Source of the DNA: a virus | Length of the DNA: 23,078 nucleotides | IMG/VR virus record: IMGVR_UViG_3300027754_002617 | Coordinates: 1 to 23,078 of that record | Direction: 5' to 3' (one strand) | Shown here: positions 2,227 through 22,105 of the stretch, piece by piece | Layout: each line of letters starts with the position of its first letter | How positions within the stretch are numbered: the stretch's first letter is position 1 | Translations under genes and position numbers: made by a program | Notes under the pieces: model-generated | The model's input: only the letters and a program-made list of their open reading frames with translations | Database searches by the model: none | Told to the model about the DNA's origin: nothing

Positions 2227-3174
2227 ATGAAAAAATTATTACTCGCATTACTACTGATTCCCATATTGGCATTTGCTTGGGAACCTACCAAACCTATTAC
2301 AGTTATTGTTGGATTTGCTCCTGGATCTGGAAATGAACTAGCATTTAGACAAGTCAGTTCAATTGTTCAAAAAAATAATCCTAAAGTTAACTTTATTGTT
2401 GAAAACAAACCAGGCGCTGATGCGGTGATCGCACAAAATTATATGCTTACAGTTCCTGCTGATGGATATACTGTTAGTGTACCCAGTCACATGAGTTTAT
2501 TTGTAACTAACGATATTTGGCAAAAAGACGTTAAAAAATTTAAATGGGATACATTTACAAATGTTGCAACATTAGGAAAAAGTCCATTAGTGTTGGTAGT
2601 GAACAGTCGTAGCCCCGTCGACACACCTGAAATGTTTAAAGGTCTAGTTAAAATGGGATATCGTCCTGTAAATATTGCTATCGGCGGCGGGGCGCATCAA
2701 ATGGCCTACGAATACATAATGAATCAAGTCGGATCTAATGATCAAGTTCAAATGATCAAGTATCAAGGTCCGTTACAAGCAGTGACAGCAGTGGCAGGCG
2801 ATCAAACAGAATTTGGAATTATGCCTATAGCCGTGGCAAGACCATTAATAGAAGCTGGCAAAGTTAAAGTTATTGGATTAACCACTGATAAAAAATTAGA
2901 TAATTATCCGTTGCTAAATCAAGCATTTCCAGGCATAGAAGTATATGCTGGCTGGATGGTATCATTGCCACCTAATACTCCGCAGGATATTATTGATTGG
3001 TATCAAAAAGAATTTAGTCTTGCTATTAAAAGCCAGGAATATAGACAGTGGGCAAAACAAAATCAAATATTAGTTGTTGATAATGAGCTTAGTCCCGCTG
3101 GCACTTTAAACTATGGCAAAAAATTAAGATCTACATTTACTTCTATTATAAACAATAATAATTTATCAAAATGA
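2227..3174 (+). CDS. TctC/Bug-type periplasmic substrate-binding protein
   Basis: The 315-residue product has an N-terminal signal peptide (KK, a hydrophobic run, cleavage probably after ILAFA near residue 17). The Bug-family opening follows: EPTKPITVIVGFAPGSGNE, then a VENKPGAD segment and PADGYTV, the usual hallmarks of the substrate pocket of tripartite tricarboxylate transporter receptors. Length is normal for the family (about 300-330). In bacteria these periplasmic proteins bind carboxylates or other small anions and deliver them to TctAB-type membrane partners. No such partners are encoded here, so it would have to use host permeases or act as a sensor or scavenger. It overlaps the next gene by four bases. 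A phage copy is unusual and points to a host rich in Bug receptors, probably Burkholderiales (inference). Confidence 0.85.
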   Translation: MKKLLLALLLIPILAFAWEPTKPITVIVGFAPGSGNELAFRQVSSIVQKNNPKVNFIVENKPGADAVIAQNYMLTVPADGYTVSVPSHMSLFVTNDIWQKDVKKFKWDTFTNVATLGKSPLVLVVNSRSPVDTPEMFKGLVKMGYRPVNIAIGGGAHQMAYEYIMNQVGSNDQVQMIKYQGPLQAVTAVAGDQTEFGIMPIAVARPLIEAGKVKVIGLTTDKKLDNYPLLNQAFPGIEVYAGWMVSLPPNTPQDIIDWYQKEFSLAIKSQEYRQWAKQNQILVVDNELSPAGTLNYGKKLRSTFTSIINNNNLSK

Positions 3175-3791
3175 AGTATATCTTTATGGCCGGTGCCCCG
3201 GGCTCAAAATGGAGCTCAGTAAGCAAAAACATTTATTTTAGCCCTAGTATTGATCGTAGCGATTCCAGCCCAGATCGAGAATACTATCAAGATGCTCCAA
3301 GTAAATTGCAATTAATGCACACAGGCGCATATTTTGATCCTGGAATGGAATTTGGCGATTTTTTTGATAAATTAGATCAACACACCAAAGAAGAATGTGA
3401 AGCTGAATTTGATCGACCGTTTACTGGCCAAGGTGTGCGTATTATTAAAAGCCATGTTTTTTCACATCATATCGATTATATCAAAAAAACTTGGCCCGAT
3501 TGCCCTATTATTTTAATACATAGAGATAGTGATGCTTGTTTAGGTTGGTGGGTGCGTAGTGGCCATTTTAATATTACCTATCCTAACTACAACAAATATT
3601 ATAAAGATTTAAAAAATATGGCCCAAGAAATTGATGCTCAAAATAAAGATATTTTGACCGCTTGGAATAATTACACAGGCACAGAACCAGAAACAAATAT
3701 GTCTTTAGCGTATACTTTGGGTATATATGGGCCGCCCGATGGTAATTTACAAAATTATAAAAAATTAAACATAAAGGTAAAAGTAATATGA
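3171..3791 (+). CDS. Sulfotransferase-like protein
   Basis: The 206-residue protein starts MKYIFMAGAPGSKWSSVSK. The GAPGSKWSS stretch (8-16) resembles the PAPS 5'-phosphosulfate-binding loop of sulfotransferases. RIIKSHVFSHH (90-100) and IILIHRDSDAC (113-123) match the usual second half of the PAPS pocket, with R118 and S120 as candidate 3'-phosphate contacts. It starts within the TctC-like gene (ATGA overlap), so the two are probably co-translated. Related proteins are common in T4-like cyanophages, where the acceptor is unknown. A role in modifying virion or host surface sugars or metabolites is possible. Catalytic competence cannot be judged from motifs alone. Confidence 0.65.
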   Translation: MKYIFMAGAPGSKWSSVSKNIYFSPSIDRSDSSPDREYYQDAPSKLQLMHTGAYFDPGMEFGDFFDKLDQHTKEECEAEFDRPFTGQGVRIIKSHVFSHHIDYIKKTWPDCPIILIHRDSDACLGWWVRSGHFNITYPNYNKYYKDLKNMAQEIDAQNKDILTAWNNYTGTEPETNMSLAYTLGIYGPPDGNLQNYKKLNIKVKVI

Positions 3792-3846
3792 ATAGTATCA
3801 TGTTAATATTACTAAATTTGACCCGACTCAACCGATAACGCTGGGC

Positions 3847-3882
3847 ATAACCCTAGAATTATACAGAAATAACTGGGGTTAT
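3847..3882 (+). terminator. Strong hairpin without U-tract between island and lysis cassette
   Basis: ATAACCCTAG (3847-3856) pairs with CTGGGGTTAT (3873-3882), giving ten base pairs with one G-U and a 16-nt loop. No run of T follows, so it is not a classical intrinsic terminator. It may act as a weak or factor-dependent terminator or as an mRNA end-protecting or processing hairpin. Confidence 0.5.
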
Positions 3883-3910
3883 AACTGAGCATATTACAAC
3901 GCTAGATTTA

Positions 3911-3918
3911 GCTAAATA
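3911..3918 (+). promoter_or_regulatory. Putative late promoter GCTAAATA of the lysis cassette
   Basis: GCTAAATA resembles the T4 late motif TATAAATA and recurs before two other genes here (13315, 17916). With T4 spacing the start falls near 3924, about 18 bases before the endolysin ATG and downstream of most of the left arm of the hairpin at 3916-3943. Confidence 0.5.
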
Positions 3919-3943
3919 GTAGATCAAGGAGTAAATCTACTAT
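3916..3943 (+). promoter_or_regulatory. Hairpin enclosing the endolysin ribosome-binding site
   Basis: ATAGTAGAT (3916-3924) is perfectly complementary to ATCTACTAT (3935-3943). The ten-base loop CAAGGAGTAA holds the Shine-Dalgarno AAGGAG, and the right arm includes the A and U of the start codon. Long read-through mRNAs would fold it. An mRNA started at the overlapping late promoter would lack almost all of the left arm. Confidence 0.65.
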
Positions 3944-4565
3944 GGCGATTTCGCAAGAACAATTACAACAAATTTTACCTGGTAATCCTTACTTGGATCA
4001 GTGGTGCGAAGCATTGAATAAAATCCTTCCTGACTATGATATCAACACACCACAGCGCGAAGCAGCTTTCCTAGCACAATGCGCTCACGAGTCGGGTAAT
4101 TTTACAGCACTACACGAAAATTTAAACTATCGTGCGGCTACACTACGCAAAGTATTTCCTAAATATTTTCCAACAGACGCTATCGCTGAACAATATGCGT
4201 CACAGCCTAACAAAGCTGAACTAATTGCTAATCGTGTGTATGCCAATCGCATGGGCAATGGTGACGAAGCAAGTGGTGATGGTTATCGCTATTGTGGCCG
4301 TGGCTTAATTCAATTAACTGGTAAAAATAATTATCAAGCGTTTGCTGATAGTGTAGAAATGAATGTAGAAGACGTTCCAGCTTTCTTAGAAACATTCGAG
4401 GGTGCTGTGCAAAGTGCCTGCTGGTTTTGGGAAACAAACAATTTAAATCAATATGCAGATAGCGGCGATATTTTAACAATGACAAAAAGAATTAATGGTG
4501 GCACGATTGGATTAGAAGATCGTATCAAGCATTACGAACACGCTAAACACGTACTGGGGGCCTAA
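3942..4565 (+). CDS. GH19 chitinase-like endolysin
   Basis: The 207-residue product is a compact glycoside hydrolase family 19 domain of the kind phages use as endolysins to cut the glycan strands of peptidoglycan. The catalytic Glu is E50 in AQCAHESGNF. A second acid, E59, sits in LHENLNY. CGRGLIQLTGKNNY (118-131) is the conserved substrate-cleft motif, and KRINGG (182-187) is the typical C-terminal motif. There is no signal peptide or transmembrane segment, so export would depend on the holin. It opens the lysis cassette and overlaps the spanin gene (TAATG). AAGGAG precedes the ATG by about a dozen bases, inside a regulatory hairpin. Length is normal for single-domain GH19 endolysins. Confidence 0.9.
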   Translation: MAISQEQLQQILPGNPYLDQWCEALNKILPDYDINTPQREAAFLAQCAHESGNFTALHENLNYRAATLRKVFPKYFPTDAIAEQYASQPNKAELIANRVYANRMGNGDEASGDGYRYCGRGLIQLTGKNNYQAFADSVEMNVEDVPAFLETFEGAVQSACWFWETNNLNQYADSGDILTMTKRINGGTIGLEDRIKHYEHAKHVLGA

Positions 4566-5017
4566 TGTTTTTACTACACTTTTTACCTGATTGGTTGCTG
4601 TCTGGTTTTGTCAACACTATTTTAGTAGTGGGCGCAATATTGACGGTGTTAAGTTATTTTACTAGTTGGATTCCGTTTATTACACAATATCGAGTACCAG
4701 CACAAGTTATTGGACTTGTTTTATTAACTGGTGGCGTTTACTTCAAAGGCGGTCAAGCCGCTGAATTACAATGGCGCGGTCGTGTAGCGGAGCTTGAACA
4801 AAAAATTGAGTTGGCTGAACAGAAAAGCAAAGATGCGGCACAACGTCTTAACGATGAAGTTAAGCGCAACAAAGCCACAGTCAAAGCAAACACCGCCGCT
4901 GTTAAACAAGACATTGCTCGCGATGCTATTCAGTTAGATAGTGAATGCCGTGTAAGTGATTCAGCTATTACTATCCACAACAATGCGGCAGCAAATAAAA
5001 CTAAGGTGACAAAATGA
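4565..5017 (+). CDS. Inner-membrane spanin (Rz-like), 150 aa
   Basis: Two hydrophobic segments (about 12-34 and 45-61) are followed by a basic patch and a long Ala/Glu/Lys-rich coiled coil (about 66-120) with a polar C-terminus. This is the shape of an i-spanin, whose periplasmic coiled coil joins an outer-membrane lipoprotein to fuse the two membranes at the end of lysis. It lies directly after the endolysin and overlaps by four bases a small lipoprotein gene, the usual Rz/Rz1 arrangement. Classical Rz has one transmembrane segment. The second hydrophobic stretch here makes the topology less certain, and a holin-spanin hybrid is an alternative. The assignment rests on architecture and gene order, not on a sequence motif. 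Confidence 0.65.
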   Translation: MFLLHFLPDWLLSGFVNTILVVGAILTVLSYFTSWIPFITQYRVPAQVIGLVLLTGGVYFKGGQAAELQWRGRVAELEQKIELAEQKSKDAAQRLNDEVKRNKATVKANTAAVKQDIARDAIQLDSECRVSDSAITIHNNAAANKTKVTK

Positions 5018-5280
5018 AAAAATTAATTGCCTTTGCATTTATTCTATTGATAGGTTGTACAAGTGCGCCTGTTAAAATACAGTTTCCTACTGTGCCAGAA
5101 GAGTTAACAAAGTCTTGCGGCGATTTACAATTAGTGAAAGAAGACAATCATCAGTTTAGCAATTTCTTAAATGTTGTAGTTGACAACTATGGCACTTACT
5201 ACGAGTGTAAGATTCAAGCCGATGCCTGGCAACGCTGGTACGAAGAACAAAAGAAAATTTTCAACGAGGCATTTAAATGA
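5014..5280 (+). CDS. Outer-membrane spanin lipoprotein (Rz1-like), 88 aa
   Basis: The N-terminus MKKLIAFAFILLIGCTS is a lipoprotein signal with a lipobox ending at C15. The mature part of about 73 residues has two further Cys (residues 35 and 62), a YYECKIQADAWQRWYEEQ segment and an amphipathic C-terminus. Its four-base overlap with the coiled-coil gene upstream marks it as the o-spanin partner, which would sit in the outer membrane facing the periplasm. Unlike lambda Rz1 it is a separate, barely overlapping gene and is not proline-rich. Confidence comes from the lipobox plus position. Confidence 0.7.
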   Translation: MKKLIAFAFILLIGCTSAPVKIQFPTVPEELTKSCGDLQLVKEDNHQFSNFLNVVVDNYGTYYECKIQADAWQRWYEEQKKIFNEAFK

Positions 5281-6341: not shown

Positions 6342-6371
6342 AATAATAATAAAAATAAGGAGCTATAATGT
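6332..6371 (+). promoter_or_regulatory. Inverted repeat masking the holin start codon
   Basis: ACATTATA (6332-6339) pairs perfectly with TATAATGT (6364-6371), which contains the whole start codon. The 24-base loop is an ATA-rich run ending in the Shine-Dalgarno AAGGAG (6357-6362). It is an eight-pair, mostly A-U stem, modest in strength. Confidence 0.4.
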
Positions 6372-6805
6372 CTGAAGAAGTAAAGATGTCTGCTAGTGAG
6401 CAGAAAAAAGAAGATTGGATGAATTCAAAATGGCGTCCAATGATGGGGTGGATGTATATGTTAGTATGTACAATGGATTTCGTAGTATTTCCAATCTTAT
6501 GGAGTTTAATACAATCATTAAGTCACGGCAATGTAGCAACACAATGGAGCCCTGTGACATTACAAGGCGCTGGATTATTCCATATGGCCATGGGTGCTGT
6601 TATTGGTGTTGCGGCATTTGGTCGCACACAAGAAAAATTAGCCGGCAAAGCAAATGACAATAGTATACCGCCAAGTTTTGGCGCACAGGCGGTACCTACA
6701 TTTGGTAGCAGTCCTGCTCCGTCGTTTGGAGCGCCAAGTGCGCCGCCACCAAGTTTTGATAGTAAACCAGCGGGACCTGGTCCAACATCGTTCCCGGCAT
6801 TATAA
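6368..6805 (+). CDS. 3TM-type holin with Pro/Gly/Phe-rich tail, 145 aa
   Basis: The core KWRPMMGWMYMLVCTMDF (21-38), then PILW, QWSPVTLQGAGLFHMAMGA and GVAAFGRTQEK, is characteristic of the phage/GTA 'holin of 3TM' family. It has hydrophobic segments at about 26-50 and 66-85. Such proteins collect in the inner membrane and open holes that release the endolysin. The last 45 residues are low in complexity, with PSFGA, PTFGS, PSFGA and PSFDS repeats, and are probably disordered. That tail is unusual for the family. AAGGAG lies six bases before the ATG, and the ATG is inside an inverted repeat. Family recognition is confident. The tail's role is unknown. Confidence 0.8.
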   Translation: MSEEVKMSASEQKKEDWMNSKWRPMMGWMYMLVCTMDFVVFPILWSLIQSLSHGNVATQWSPVTLQGAGLFHMAMGAVIGVAAFGRTQEKLAGKANDNSIPPSFGAQAVPTFGSSPAPSFGAPSAPPPSFDSKPAGPGPTSFPAL

Positions 6806-13314: not shown

Positions 13315-13322
13315 GCTAAATA
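13315..13322 (+). promoter_or_regulatory. Putative late promoter GCTAAATA at the start of the mosaic cluster
   Basis: GCTAAATATAGTAATG places the T4-type late motif five bases before the ATG at 13328. With the last A at -6 the predicted start is the A of the ATG itself. There is no Shine-Dalgarno, and the motif directly follows a strong terminator, so some promoter is needed here. Confidence 0.6.
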
Positions 13323-13327
13323 TAGTA

Positions 13328-15460
13328 ATGAACATTGAGCAACTAGAATCTTTCAATTTATCCGATGCTGTAAAGTTTCACGATAAACTTAACCCTTTGC
13401 TGTGGGATAATAGGGAAAACTTACATCCTGAAATTAAGGAACAGTTATTGGCTATTGCCGCGGATTTTGGCGATTATATTGGCGTTGATAATTTAAATTT
13501 AAAAGACATAACAATATCGGGTAGTAATGCCGCTTTTTCATATACTCCACATTCTGACATAGATTTACATTTAATTGTAGATTTAGGCGATGAAGAACAC
13601 AAAGACATCTTCCGCGAATTGTTTGATGCTAAGAAGTCGATCTACAACACAGAACACAAAATTACCATCAAAGGCATTCCTGTTGAACTATATGTACAGG
13701 ATGCTAACCAAGCACATCACAGTCAGGGCGTTTATAGCATTTTAAACAATGCTTGGTTAGAAATTCCTCGACGTCGTCATGCTGATATTGATGACATGAG
13801 CGTTCGTAGCAAATACAAAGATTTAAGTAAGCGTATTAGAGCAGCTATTAAATCCAAATCCGTTGAGCAAATGAATGCTGTTATGGAAAAGATCAGAGAT
13901 ATCCGTGGGGCAGGTCTAGCCAGTCACGGTGAGTTTGGTGCCGAAAATTTGGCATTTAAATTATTACGCAACAAGGGCGATTTGAAACGACTACAAAATG
14001 CTCGCAAGGCAGCCAAAAGTGCAGAGTTAAGTTTGAAAGAGCGTATTCGCCCTCCAGTTAATTATGGTTACGGGCAAGACTATTTAGATGAAGTAGGACT
14101 AACTCCAGATGGTACTAACCCAAGCACTTGCGAGTTTACCAATGAACAACAGTTGGACGAAGTTGGTTTAACTCCAGATGGCACTAACCCAAGTACTTCA
14201 CAATTTACTAATGAAGGTGGCAAAACAGACAGCGATATAATAAATGATTTTGCTCAGTTCTGCGTTACTAATTTAAGATTAGAGTTACCTATTAGACTTA
14301 GACTAAAAAAAGATCCAGCTTGGTCCGAACGCAATAAAACATTTGGTCGTTATAATCACGAAACTAATGAACTTGAAGTATCACTAGCAGGTCGCCATTT
14401 AATGGATGTACTGCGCACAATCGCACACGAACTTACACATCAACGTCAACATGAGCGTGAAAATGTTCCCGATCATGCCGGTGAAACTGGTAGCGAATAT
14501 GAAAACGAAGCTAATGCTCGTGCTGGCATACTAATGCGCGAGTATGGTCGTGCTCACCCAGAATTATTTACGGATGCAGATTTAAAAGAAGGATTATTAT
14601 CTGAATATATTTCTATGGGATCAGATAAAAATTTCCAAGAAGCAGAACCTTATAAAAATTATAAAATATATGTACGGAAAAAACCATTTGGTAATACTGG
14701 AATGTATACAGCACATACCGAAATAGATCGTAGAGAATTCGTAGGCAAAGGCACTAGTCAAGAAGAGGCAATTCAAGCAGCTCGTGATAAAATTGATTTT
14801 GTGTTAAACGCTCAAAAGAAAGTTACTGGGTCAAGTACAATTGATTTTAATGTTAAATTTGCCACAGATTTATTAGCTGATCCCCGTCAAACATTTTATG
14901 CTAAACTTGAAAATATTAATGGCGGACCTAAATTAGTTATTGCCGGTACAGACATTGCGTCTGATCCAGAATTATTGGCTGCTGGCGATTTTAAAAAAAG
15001 CTCATTACGAAACAGAGTCGACGATGAAGGACGCTCTACCCCATTGCCGGGTATTCCATTATCTGCTAAAAGTTTAAGAGCTGGACAATGGATAGCCAAC
15101 GGTAGATATGCTATTGGCAATGAAACAACAGACAGCGATGGTAATCGCATATTTGATTTAACTTATCATAGCACAGCACATACTAAAACTGATAAATTAA
15201 GATTAAATCAACCGGCATTTACATTAGGTACAAATCGTGAAATTAGTGAAGCTACAGGATATATTCCCACTGCCGCAGAAGCCGACGATCCACGTTTTGA
15301 AATGGCACTTACTGTAGATATACGCCCAGGGGCTATTGGAAAGAACGCTAATAAATTATTGTTAAATACAGACAGTCAAGGACACCCACAAGAGTTACGT
15401 GCCGACGGTGTTGTACAACGTATGATGAAAGAATATTTGGAGTTTAAAAATGAAAATTAA
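13328..15460 (+). CDS. Nucleotidyltransferase-metallopeptidase fusion, 710 aa
   Basis: Residues about 30-240 form a polymerase-beta-like nucleotidyltransferase: G65-S66, SDIDLHL with D77 and D79, and E120 in GIPVELYV as third acid. Residues 253-298 are two tandem 23-residue repeats that begin LDEVGLTPDGTNPST. Residues 300-415 contain a zinc metallopeptidase domain with H367-E-L-T-H371 and a downstream acidic helix (E394) as probable third ligand, similar to SprT/ImmA-like folds. The remaining 300 residues hold small beta domains and end in a module (TGYIPTAAEADDPRFEMALT) that I recall from other phage proteins. The LDE sites in the repeats look like T4 gp21 prohead protease sites ((L/I)-x-E), so the chain may be cut. 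Either enzyme domain could act as a toxin, immune antagonist or maturation factor; the function is unproven. Confidence 0.7.
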   Translation: MNIEQLESFNLSDAVKFHDKLNPLLWDNRENLHPEIKEQLLAIAADFGDYIGVDNLNLKDITISGSNAAFSYTPHSDIDLHLIVDLGDEEHKDIFRELFDAKKSIYNTEHKITIKGIPVELYVQDANQAHHSQGVYSILNNAWLEIPRRRHADIDDMSVRSKYKDLSKRIRAAIKSKSVEQMNAVMEKIRDIRGAGLASHGEFGAENLAFKLLRNKGDLKRLQNARKAAKSAELSLKERIRPPVNYGYGQDYLDEVGLTPDGTNPSTCEFTNEQQLDEVGLTPDGTNPSTSQFTNEGGKTDSDIINDFAQFCVTNLRLELPIRLRLKKDPAWSERNKTFGRYNHETNELEVSLAGRHLMDVLRTIAHELTHQRQHERENVPDHAGETGSEYENEANARAGILMREYGRAHPELFTDADLKEGLLSEYISMGSDKNFQEAEPYKNYKIYVRKKPFGNTGMYTAHTEIDRREFVGKGTSQEEAIQAARDKIDFVLNAQKKVTGSSTIDFNVKFATDLLADPRQTFYAKLENINGGPKLVIAGTDIASDPELLAAGDFKKSSLRNRVDDEGRSTPLPGIPLSAKSLRAGQWIANGRYAIGNETTDSDGNRIFDLTYHSTAHTKTDKLRLNQPAFTLGTNREISEATGYIPTAAEADDPRFEMALTVDIRPGAIGKNANKLLLNTDSQGHPQELRADGVVQRMMKEYLEFKNEN
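14084..14221 (+). repeat. 69-bp tandem duplication in the fusion gene linker
   Basis: Two 69-base units (14084-14152 and 14153-14221) encode LDEVGLTPDGTNPST followed by CEFTNEQQ and SQFTNEGG. They differ at scattered, largely synonymous bases, so the duplication is not very recent and the peptide sequence appears conserved. The unit lies exactly between the nucleotidyltransferase and metallopeptidase domains. Confidence 0.85.
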
Positions 15461-17915: not shown

Positions 17916-17923
17916 GCTAAATA
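17916..17923 (+). promoter_or_regulatory. Putative late promoter GCTAAATA inside the mosaic cluster
   Basis: GCTAAATACAGTATG puts the motif four bases before the ATG at 17928, in the only real gap of this cluster. The predicted start falls within one base of the ATG, and no Shine-Dalgarno is seen. It shares GCTAAATA-n-AGTA with the site at 13315. Confidence 0.5.
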
Positions 17924-17927
17924 CAGT

Positions 17928-18215
17928 ATGAATAAAACATTCGTACGAGTATTAAGTGACATTGACTGTGATTGGGAAGGATTAAGTCCTATCTATCGTT
18001 TGTATGTCAACGACGAATTGTTTTCTGAGCGTACTTGGATTTGGCCCGATAACGCATTACAAGAAATTATACAAGTAGAAGGCCCTCCAGGAGACTATAC
18101 TTTACGCTATGAGCTAGTTAACCCTCATTTAGCCCAATTTAAAGTGGGTAGTTTATCCACAGATTACGGCCCTGTTGAAATTATCGATAATCTACACTTT
18201 AGGATTACAACATGA
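17928..18215 (+). CDS. Small beta-rich conserved protein, 95 aa
   Basis: The product (MNKTFVRVLSDIDCDW, then YRLYVNDELFSERTWIW and PPGDYTLRYELVN) is a compact series of beta strands with no signal. I recall near relatives across T4-like cyanophages, annotated as hypothetical. A beta-sandwich structural or accessory virion protein would fit, but there is no direct evidence. Its end overlaps the next gene by four bases. Confidence 0.65.
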   Translation: MNKTFVRVLSDIDCDWEGLSPIYRLYVNDELFSERTWIWPDNALQEIIQVEGPPGDYTLRYELVNPHLAQFKVGSLSTDYGPVEIIDNLHFRITT

Positions 18216-21844: not shown

Positions 21845-22105
21845 ATGTCAGATCGCGTATTCACAGCAGAACAAACTAAAAAACTTGAACAGATTATTAA
21901 CGAAGGTATGCAAGTTACAATGGAAATTGAAACTTTAACCGGCGGCTTAAATGATACTGTTAAAGCAGTAGCTGAAGAATTAGAAATCAAACCTGGCATT
22001 CTCAAAAAAGCAATTCGCATCGCGCACAAATCTGAATTTGGCCGCACACAAGATGACCACGCACTACTTGAGCAAATTTTAACGCAGGTTGGCAAAACGC
22101 TATAA
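21845..22105 (+). CDS. dsbA: DsbA-like dsDNA-binding late-transcription protein, 86 aa
   Basis: This small, helical, charged protein has the sequence feel of T4 DsbA homologues in aquatic T4-like phages: a Glu-rich N-terminal helix (EQIINEGMQVTMEIE), the core DTVKAVAEELEIKPGILKKA, and IRIAHKSEF. In T4, DsbA is a homodimeric double-stranded DNA-binding protein that modulates late transcription; its gene lies beside gene 33. Here it sits just before DNA polymerase and behind its own sigma70-like promoter, with a good AGGAG. The name is from remembered similarity and size, not a search. Confidence 0.65.
   Translation: MSDRVFTAEQTKKLEQIINEGMQVTMEIETLTGGLNDTVKAVAEELEIKPGILKKAIRIAHKSEFGRTQDDHALLEQILTQVGKTL

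Follow-up and report, generated by a model that had tools for sequence, protein, structure and literature searches.

Masked late genes in T4 and Aeh1

In bacteriophage T4, several late genes, among them e, soc, 49 and I-TevI, have start sites that are masked in read-through RNA and become free when transcription begins at late promoters, with repression of gene e amounting to about 100-fold (PMC3014915). Masked late starts are also found at T4 I-TevI, I-TevII, I-TevIII and segB and at mobE of Aeromonas phage Aeh1 (PMC3014915, PMC2988022), and similar e leaders are predicted only in close relatives of T4 (PMC3014915). The stretch of DNA analysed here (hereafter the window) is a 23-kb IMG/VR fragment of 23,078 nt. 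As in T4 gene e, an endolysin start would be tied up in read-through RNA, and a late promoter in the hairpin would give RNA without the left arm. Unlike T4 gene e, the window gene codes for a GH19 enzyme rather than a member of the T4 lysozyme family, has one late element, GCTAAATA, where T4 has two TATAAATA elements, holds the AUG in the stem and the Shine-Dalgarno in the loop where T4 holds the Shine-Dalgarno in the stem, has a weaker stem and heads a contiguous, overlapping endolysin-spanin cassette. The late promoter-in-hairpin logic would be common to the window and T4 soc, 49, I-TevI/II/III, segB and Aeh1 mobE, which are capsid, resolvase or homing endonuclease genes and not GH19-type lysis genes. 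The late promoters of Aeh1 (CTAAATA) have the -12 C variant seen in the window (PMC1524935), but according to the T4 review the gene e of Aeh1 has no apparent structure at its start site (PMC3014915). No report of GH19-endolysin masking was found in the open-access literature, the scope searched, and T4 gene e-type double control, which in the window would head a contiguous lysis cassette, would be new for this enzyme family.

The endolysin start site and the lysis cassette

The endolysin gene (3942..4565, + strand) opens at the ATG at 3942-3944 and comprises a 207-aa ORF ending at 4565. Its product matches phrog_181 endolysin (E 9.5e-80) and, above the cut-off, PF00182 (GH19; E 3.8e-6), and not the T4 lysozyme family; with spanins encoded directly downstream, it is classed as a GH19 phage endolysin. 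Its control would work like that of gene e, but the gene is not gene e. An Rz-like i-spanin (4565..5017, + strand; phrog_312, E 1e-4) overlaps the endolysin stop as TAATG (4563-4567), and an Rz1-like o-spanin (5014..5280, + strand; phrog_456, E 1.1e-6; Pfam LysC below cut-off) in turn overlaps the i-spanin as ATGA (5014-5017). A candidate holin is encoded at 6368..6805 (+ strand; PF11351 GTA_holin_3TM, E 8.6e-8; phrog_3427 holin, E 2.5e-10). No export signal is evident by eye in the window's GH19 endolysin, which presumably needs a holin for lysis.

The window sequence, read directly, has a perfect 9-bp inverted repeat (3916-3924 with 3935-3943) at the endolysin start. The left arm, ATAGTAGAT (3916-3924, + strand), is identified by sequence, folding and pairing tests, and the 10-nt loop, CAAGGAGTAA (3925-3934, + strand), by sequence and folding. 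The Shine-Dalgarno AAGGAG (3926-3931, + strand; 10 nt 5' of the ATG) lies in this loop, while the right arm, ATCTACTAT (3935-3943, + strand), contains the AU of the endolysin start codon. The element GCTAAATA (3911-3918) overlaps the left arm at 3916-3918. The preliminary description had read this layout correctly from the letters, in the repeat, the placement of the Shine-Dalgarno and AU and the overlap with GCTAAATA. A search of Rfam gave no match.

Directly 5' of the lysis cassette, the window carries host-like accessory genes (2227..3791, + strand) coding for a tripartite tricarboxylate receptor of the TctC type and a sulfotransferase-like protein, which are a possible source of read-through RNA. 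No T-tract terminator was found between 3791 and 3911. The 150-nt gap 5' of the promoter also holds an inverted repeat, ATAACCC/GGGTTAT (3846-3886), which has a stable fold, is not accompanied by a T-tract and gives no Rfam match.

Late promoter and late sigma factor

The predicted T4-type late promoter element GCTAAATA (3911..3918, + strand; -13 to -6) is indicated by its sequence, motif enrichment, the Aeh1 motif and the sigma factor of relatives. Under the T4 -13 to -6 rule, the late transcript is predicted to start at 3923..3925 (+ strand), with T4 spacing giving 3924, and such a start would leave at most one left-arm base in the late RNA. While GCTAAATA is not over-represented in the window (three copies against 1.86 expected), all three copies are on the + strand directly 5' of gene starts, compared with 0/63 for permuted control 7-mers. 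NTAAATA is enriched 2-35 nt before ATGs relative to permuted 7-mers in the window and in the related genomes G001 and G002, and CTAAATA is the published late promoter element of Aeromonas phage Aeh1 (PMC1524935). A gp55-like late sigma homologue is encoded in five related contigs (G001, G003, G006, G007 and G017; E 1e-63 to 1e-76), and G001 carries both this sigma and the L005 endolysin; no gp55-type sigma is present in the 23-kb window fragment.

The element GCTAAATA also precedes the ATG at 13328 by 5 nt and that at 17928 by 4 nt (window 13315-13330 and 17916-17930), two starts at which a Shine-Dalgarno is absent. T4 spacing puts +1 on these ATGs or at most 1 nt away, which would result in leaderless late messages. 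A cluster of motif-ATG gaps of 4-7 nt is observed in G002 (L558-L568) as well. A small protein encoded at 21845-22105 matches phrog_12534 and the phage transcriptional regulator family phrog_639, and TATAAATA at 22101 lies across the end of its gene.

Predicted folding of read-through and late RNA

Read-through and late-start RNAs are predicted to fold differently, a comparison the preliminary description had put forward: RNAfold gives exactly the 3916-3924/3935-3943 stem in read-through RNA, and in that RNA only, the stem being absent from RNA starting at 3924. The right arm (3935-3943) is predicted to be unpaired 2-3% of the time in read-through RNA, as against about 63% in late RNA, while the Shine-Dalgarno is about 90% unpaired in the predicted hairpin loop. 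The cost of opening 3927-3944 falls from 7-8 kcal/mol in read-through RNA to about 2.2 kcal/mol when the RNA starts at 3922-3926; the Shine-Dalgarno interval in this calculation (3927-3932) is one base off AAGGAG, and the energies barely depend on the interval. At 15 C the opening energy rises in both RNAs, to 9.4 (read-through) and 4.9 (late start). With +1 at 3922-3926, the late RNA would thus be without the left arm and open. The hairpin alone is moderate, at -6.8 kcal/mol, and much weaker than that of T4 e, which scores as expected with the same code and has an opening cost of 15.3. Work on initiation hairpins places a hairpin of -6.8 kcal/mol close to the onset of repression, so that the window on its own would predict partial repression; given a moderate stem weaker than that of T4 e, repression may indeed be partial.

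Masking stems in related phages

A scan of IMG/VR with endolysin queries yielded 250 distinct endolysin start regions, 35 of which have a late-type motif within 45 nt. The test set comprised 19 distinct GH19-endolysin starts behind NCTAAATA, and the control set 83 other late-gene starts with the same motif. A significant masking stem (p<0.05) is found at 10/19 of the endolysin starts (Fisher combined 1.8e-8, from upstream shuffles that ignore kinship) and at 7% of the 83 controls. The left arms pair with their own start sites at a mean of -10.5 kcal/mol and, when swapped between phages, at -6.6 kcal/mol, with 0/20000 permutations as good; the same p is obtained after thinning to 14 less related members, and close kin that share arms make this test harder to pass. 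In the swap test neither other late genes (p=0.07) nor phrog_12928 head-protein starts (p=0.56) reach significance. The window left arm ranks 1/19 for pairing with its own start site. The arrangement is real, and across the group of relatives the pairing is conserved.

These p-values are not pre-registered, as the contiguous-stem test and swap permutation were picked after earlier statistics had been seen. The full-fold opening cost was dropped as sole statistic for being too blunt with the Shine-Dalgarno in the loop (window p=0.096), and the base-pair-probability sum between the lost segment and the start site for its high background in AT-rich leaders, the comparison of endolysins with other Shine-Dalgarno-type starts reaching only p=0.07. 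The two arms did not stay in register in MAFFT alignments, and the pairing evidence includes no column-wise covariation count. A pattern scan for GCTAAATATGGGTA returned mostly unrelated loci. The phrog_12928 head-protein family, which stands behind GCTAAATA, first seemed masked and has no signal in the contiguous-stem or swap test.

Conservation of pairing in relatives, proposed earlier as a check, is borne out in that pairing is kept while the arm sequences change. The stems read TATGGATAGATT/GGTCTATCCATG in L429, TATGGGTAT/ATACCCATG in L382 (same contig as L086), TATGGGT/ACCCATG in L006 and L424, TATGTGC/GCACATG in L425, TATTTTGA/TCAAAATG in L432, and CTTTGAGA(T) with (A)TTTCGAGG or TTTCAAGG in L460 and L462. 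In L242 and L427, CTAATAA/TTATTAG is located inside GGGGC/GCCCC, and changes between L242, L427 and L426, which have a common stem, keep the pairs. The promoter is in the hairpin loop in L055 and L521, as in T4 e, and L009/L428 have an 11-bp stem with one mismatch that was missed by the gap-free test. Despite a late motif, a clear stem is not seen, or the fold is ambiguous, in L346, L120, L007 and L005, the last by full folding, in which the G001 endolysin ranks low for masking.

Two further genes have comparable structures at their starts. An HNH endonuclease gene (L321:4477-4920, - strand) has its start site covered by an 11-bp stem, GTTCCTAAATA/TATTTAGGAAC, with the late-type motif CCTAAATA within the stem, and in this resembles the masked homing endonucleases of T4 and Aeh1. 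A 147-aa exported-looking protein in G001 (L556:8239) has GTAAATA inside a strong GC-rich stem over its start site (opening cost 21 vs 3 kcal/mol), although this stem could instead be a terminator.

Stem turnover, upstream context and alternative explanations

The window, L006, L086 and L428 have the same TctC-receptor and sulfotransferase-like genes upstream and a spanin downstream, and each keeps a stem while the arms differ. The endolysins of L425, L242 and L426 are 90-93% alike, yet they have two unrelated stems, those of L425 and L242 being unrelated at 93% identity of the enzymes. Masked genes fall in several separate groups of the endolysin tree, in which many forks are unresolved. The alternatives that the control logic arose or persisted around this endolysin, as previously suggested, both seem true: the layout persists, the arms are rebuilt, and promoter-in-loop and TATAAATA forms occur.

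The stop codon of the upstream gene is adjacent to the promoter or overlaps it in L005, L429, L425, L242 and L426, so that any upstream message running on must carry the left arm. This position of the stop, within or just 5' of the promoter and left arm, is also what would be expected if ribosomes ending the upstream gene opened the adjacent hairpin and so linked endolysin synthesis to upstream translation, as are the predicted upstream frames that end inside the hairpin in L432 and L460. Such translational coupling is nevertheless improbable as the main explanation, as the upstream stop is 150 nt from the hairpin in the window and 52-73 nt away in L055, L521, L427 and L462, and, were coupling the whole explanation, a late promoter within the left arm or the loop would have no role. 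Where the upstream neighbour of a late-promoter endolysin is on the opposite strand, a significant stem is absent in 4/4 cases (L003, L438, L048 and L076). That masks track same-strand upstream genes is suggestive only, given that L048 and L076 are near copies and that the same-strand L346, L120 and L007 also have no clear stem.

Chance pairing in AT-rich sequence would account for a 9-bp repeat as such, which is nothing unusual in 23 kb: the window contains three perfect stems of 9 bp or more with loops of 3-15, against 2.3 in shuffles. The position of the repeat is unusual. Among local shuffles, 26/20000 (p about 0.001) contain a stem of 9 bp or more whose right arm covers the AUG, and 1% of upstream shuffles have a left arm pairing this well with the start site (p 0.01), which, with the group-level permutation result, leaves chance an unlikely source of the window hairpin. 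Least probable is that the repeat, a perfect palindrome overlapping the promoter, serves as a DNA operator at which a dimeric regulator controls the late promoter, the RNA pairing being a by-product. The arms differ between close relatives (L425/L242) and so offer no common site, while tolerated G-U pairs (L460/L462) and right arms that follow the start codon or Shine-Dalgarno are in keeping with RNA.

Cultured phages

The Vibrio phages Va1, pv27, phiKT1024, phiTY18 and SRILMA have TATAAATACTCTAAAAT(T/A)ATTTGGAGTATTTTATG 5' of a GH19 endolysin. In this version, TATAAATA is combined with a 12-bp stem that covers the start site and has GGAG in its right arm, and the opening cost is 11-13 against about 2 kcal/mol (shuffle p 0.01-0.045). 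A late sigma is encoded in 4/4 of the Vibrio phages searched (E about 1e-18 to 1e-19; Va1 E 1e-19). The pv27 paper names the protein a GH19 endolysin and places the phage distant from Straboviridae, and the words 'promoter' and 'hairpin' are absent from its text (PMC12063606). The Va1 endolysin is 4th of 25 TATAAATA-type starts by masking score, and several starts score high; in Va1, as in T4, the masking device is not restricted to lysis. The layout is absent at the GH19 endolysins of Pseudomonas phage Dolphis, Xanthomonas XacN1, Delftia PhiW-14, Vibrio Yong XC31, Flavobacterium immuto, Microcystis Mel-JY01 and Stenotrophomonas RAS14. In Microcystis phage Mel-JY01 (L577) and Stenotrophomonas phage RAS14 (L578), a strong GC-rich hairpin followed by T-rich sequence stands directly 5' of an open Shine-Dalgarno; these hairpins are possibly terminators rather than masks, another way to bar read-through RNA from the endolysin.

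Proposed control of the endolysin and its implications

The layout, the folding difference and the selection on pairing make it probable that the window has T4 gene e-type double control of its endolysin, in which promoter use, start site, read-through, repression and timing would follow the T4 pattern. RNA entering from the upstream genes would have both arms and form the hairpin, which would tie up the start codon and hold the Shine-Dalgarno in the 10-nt loop, so that little endolysin would be made from read-through RNA. Late in infection, a gp55-type sigma would start transcription at GCTAAATA, as the motif and the relatives suggest, and RNA from about 3924, without the left arm, would stay open and be translated. 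As the endolysin and spanin frames form an overlapping run (TAATG, ATGA), one mask may gate the cassette, holding down the start of the whole.

The mechanism predicted from these sequences is very likely of the T4 gene e type. The double control proposed in the preliminary description gains support from conserved pairing in relatives and from the promoter evidence, and its late-promoter reading from the position of the motif, the gp55-like sigma in relatives with the same layout and the CTAAATA of Aeh1. Its further suggestion, that early lysis is prevented, goes too far in that wording: a soluble endolysin presumably has to wait for the holin, and what the mask would hold back is early production of the enzyme, not lysis itself.

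The chances are about even that promoter-containing hairpins over lysis-gene starts are a repeatedly re-evolved, fast-turning device across T4-like phages, the arms being rebuilt while the logic stays, kept mainly with same-strand read-in and here with one hairpin gating an overlapping cassette. The layout offers a signature by which late start sites may be recognised from sequence in genomes that lack expression data, and the Vibrio phages offer a cultured system for testing masking. The T4 gene e hairpin is the textbook case of such control and, by the 2010 review, was known only in close T4 relatives; that the same logic recurs at an endolysin unrelated to that of T4, both in many uncultured phages and in Vibrio phages available in culture, suggests that early endolysin synthesis is generally selected against in phages whose late transcription is of the T4 type.
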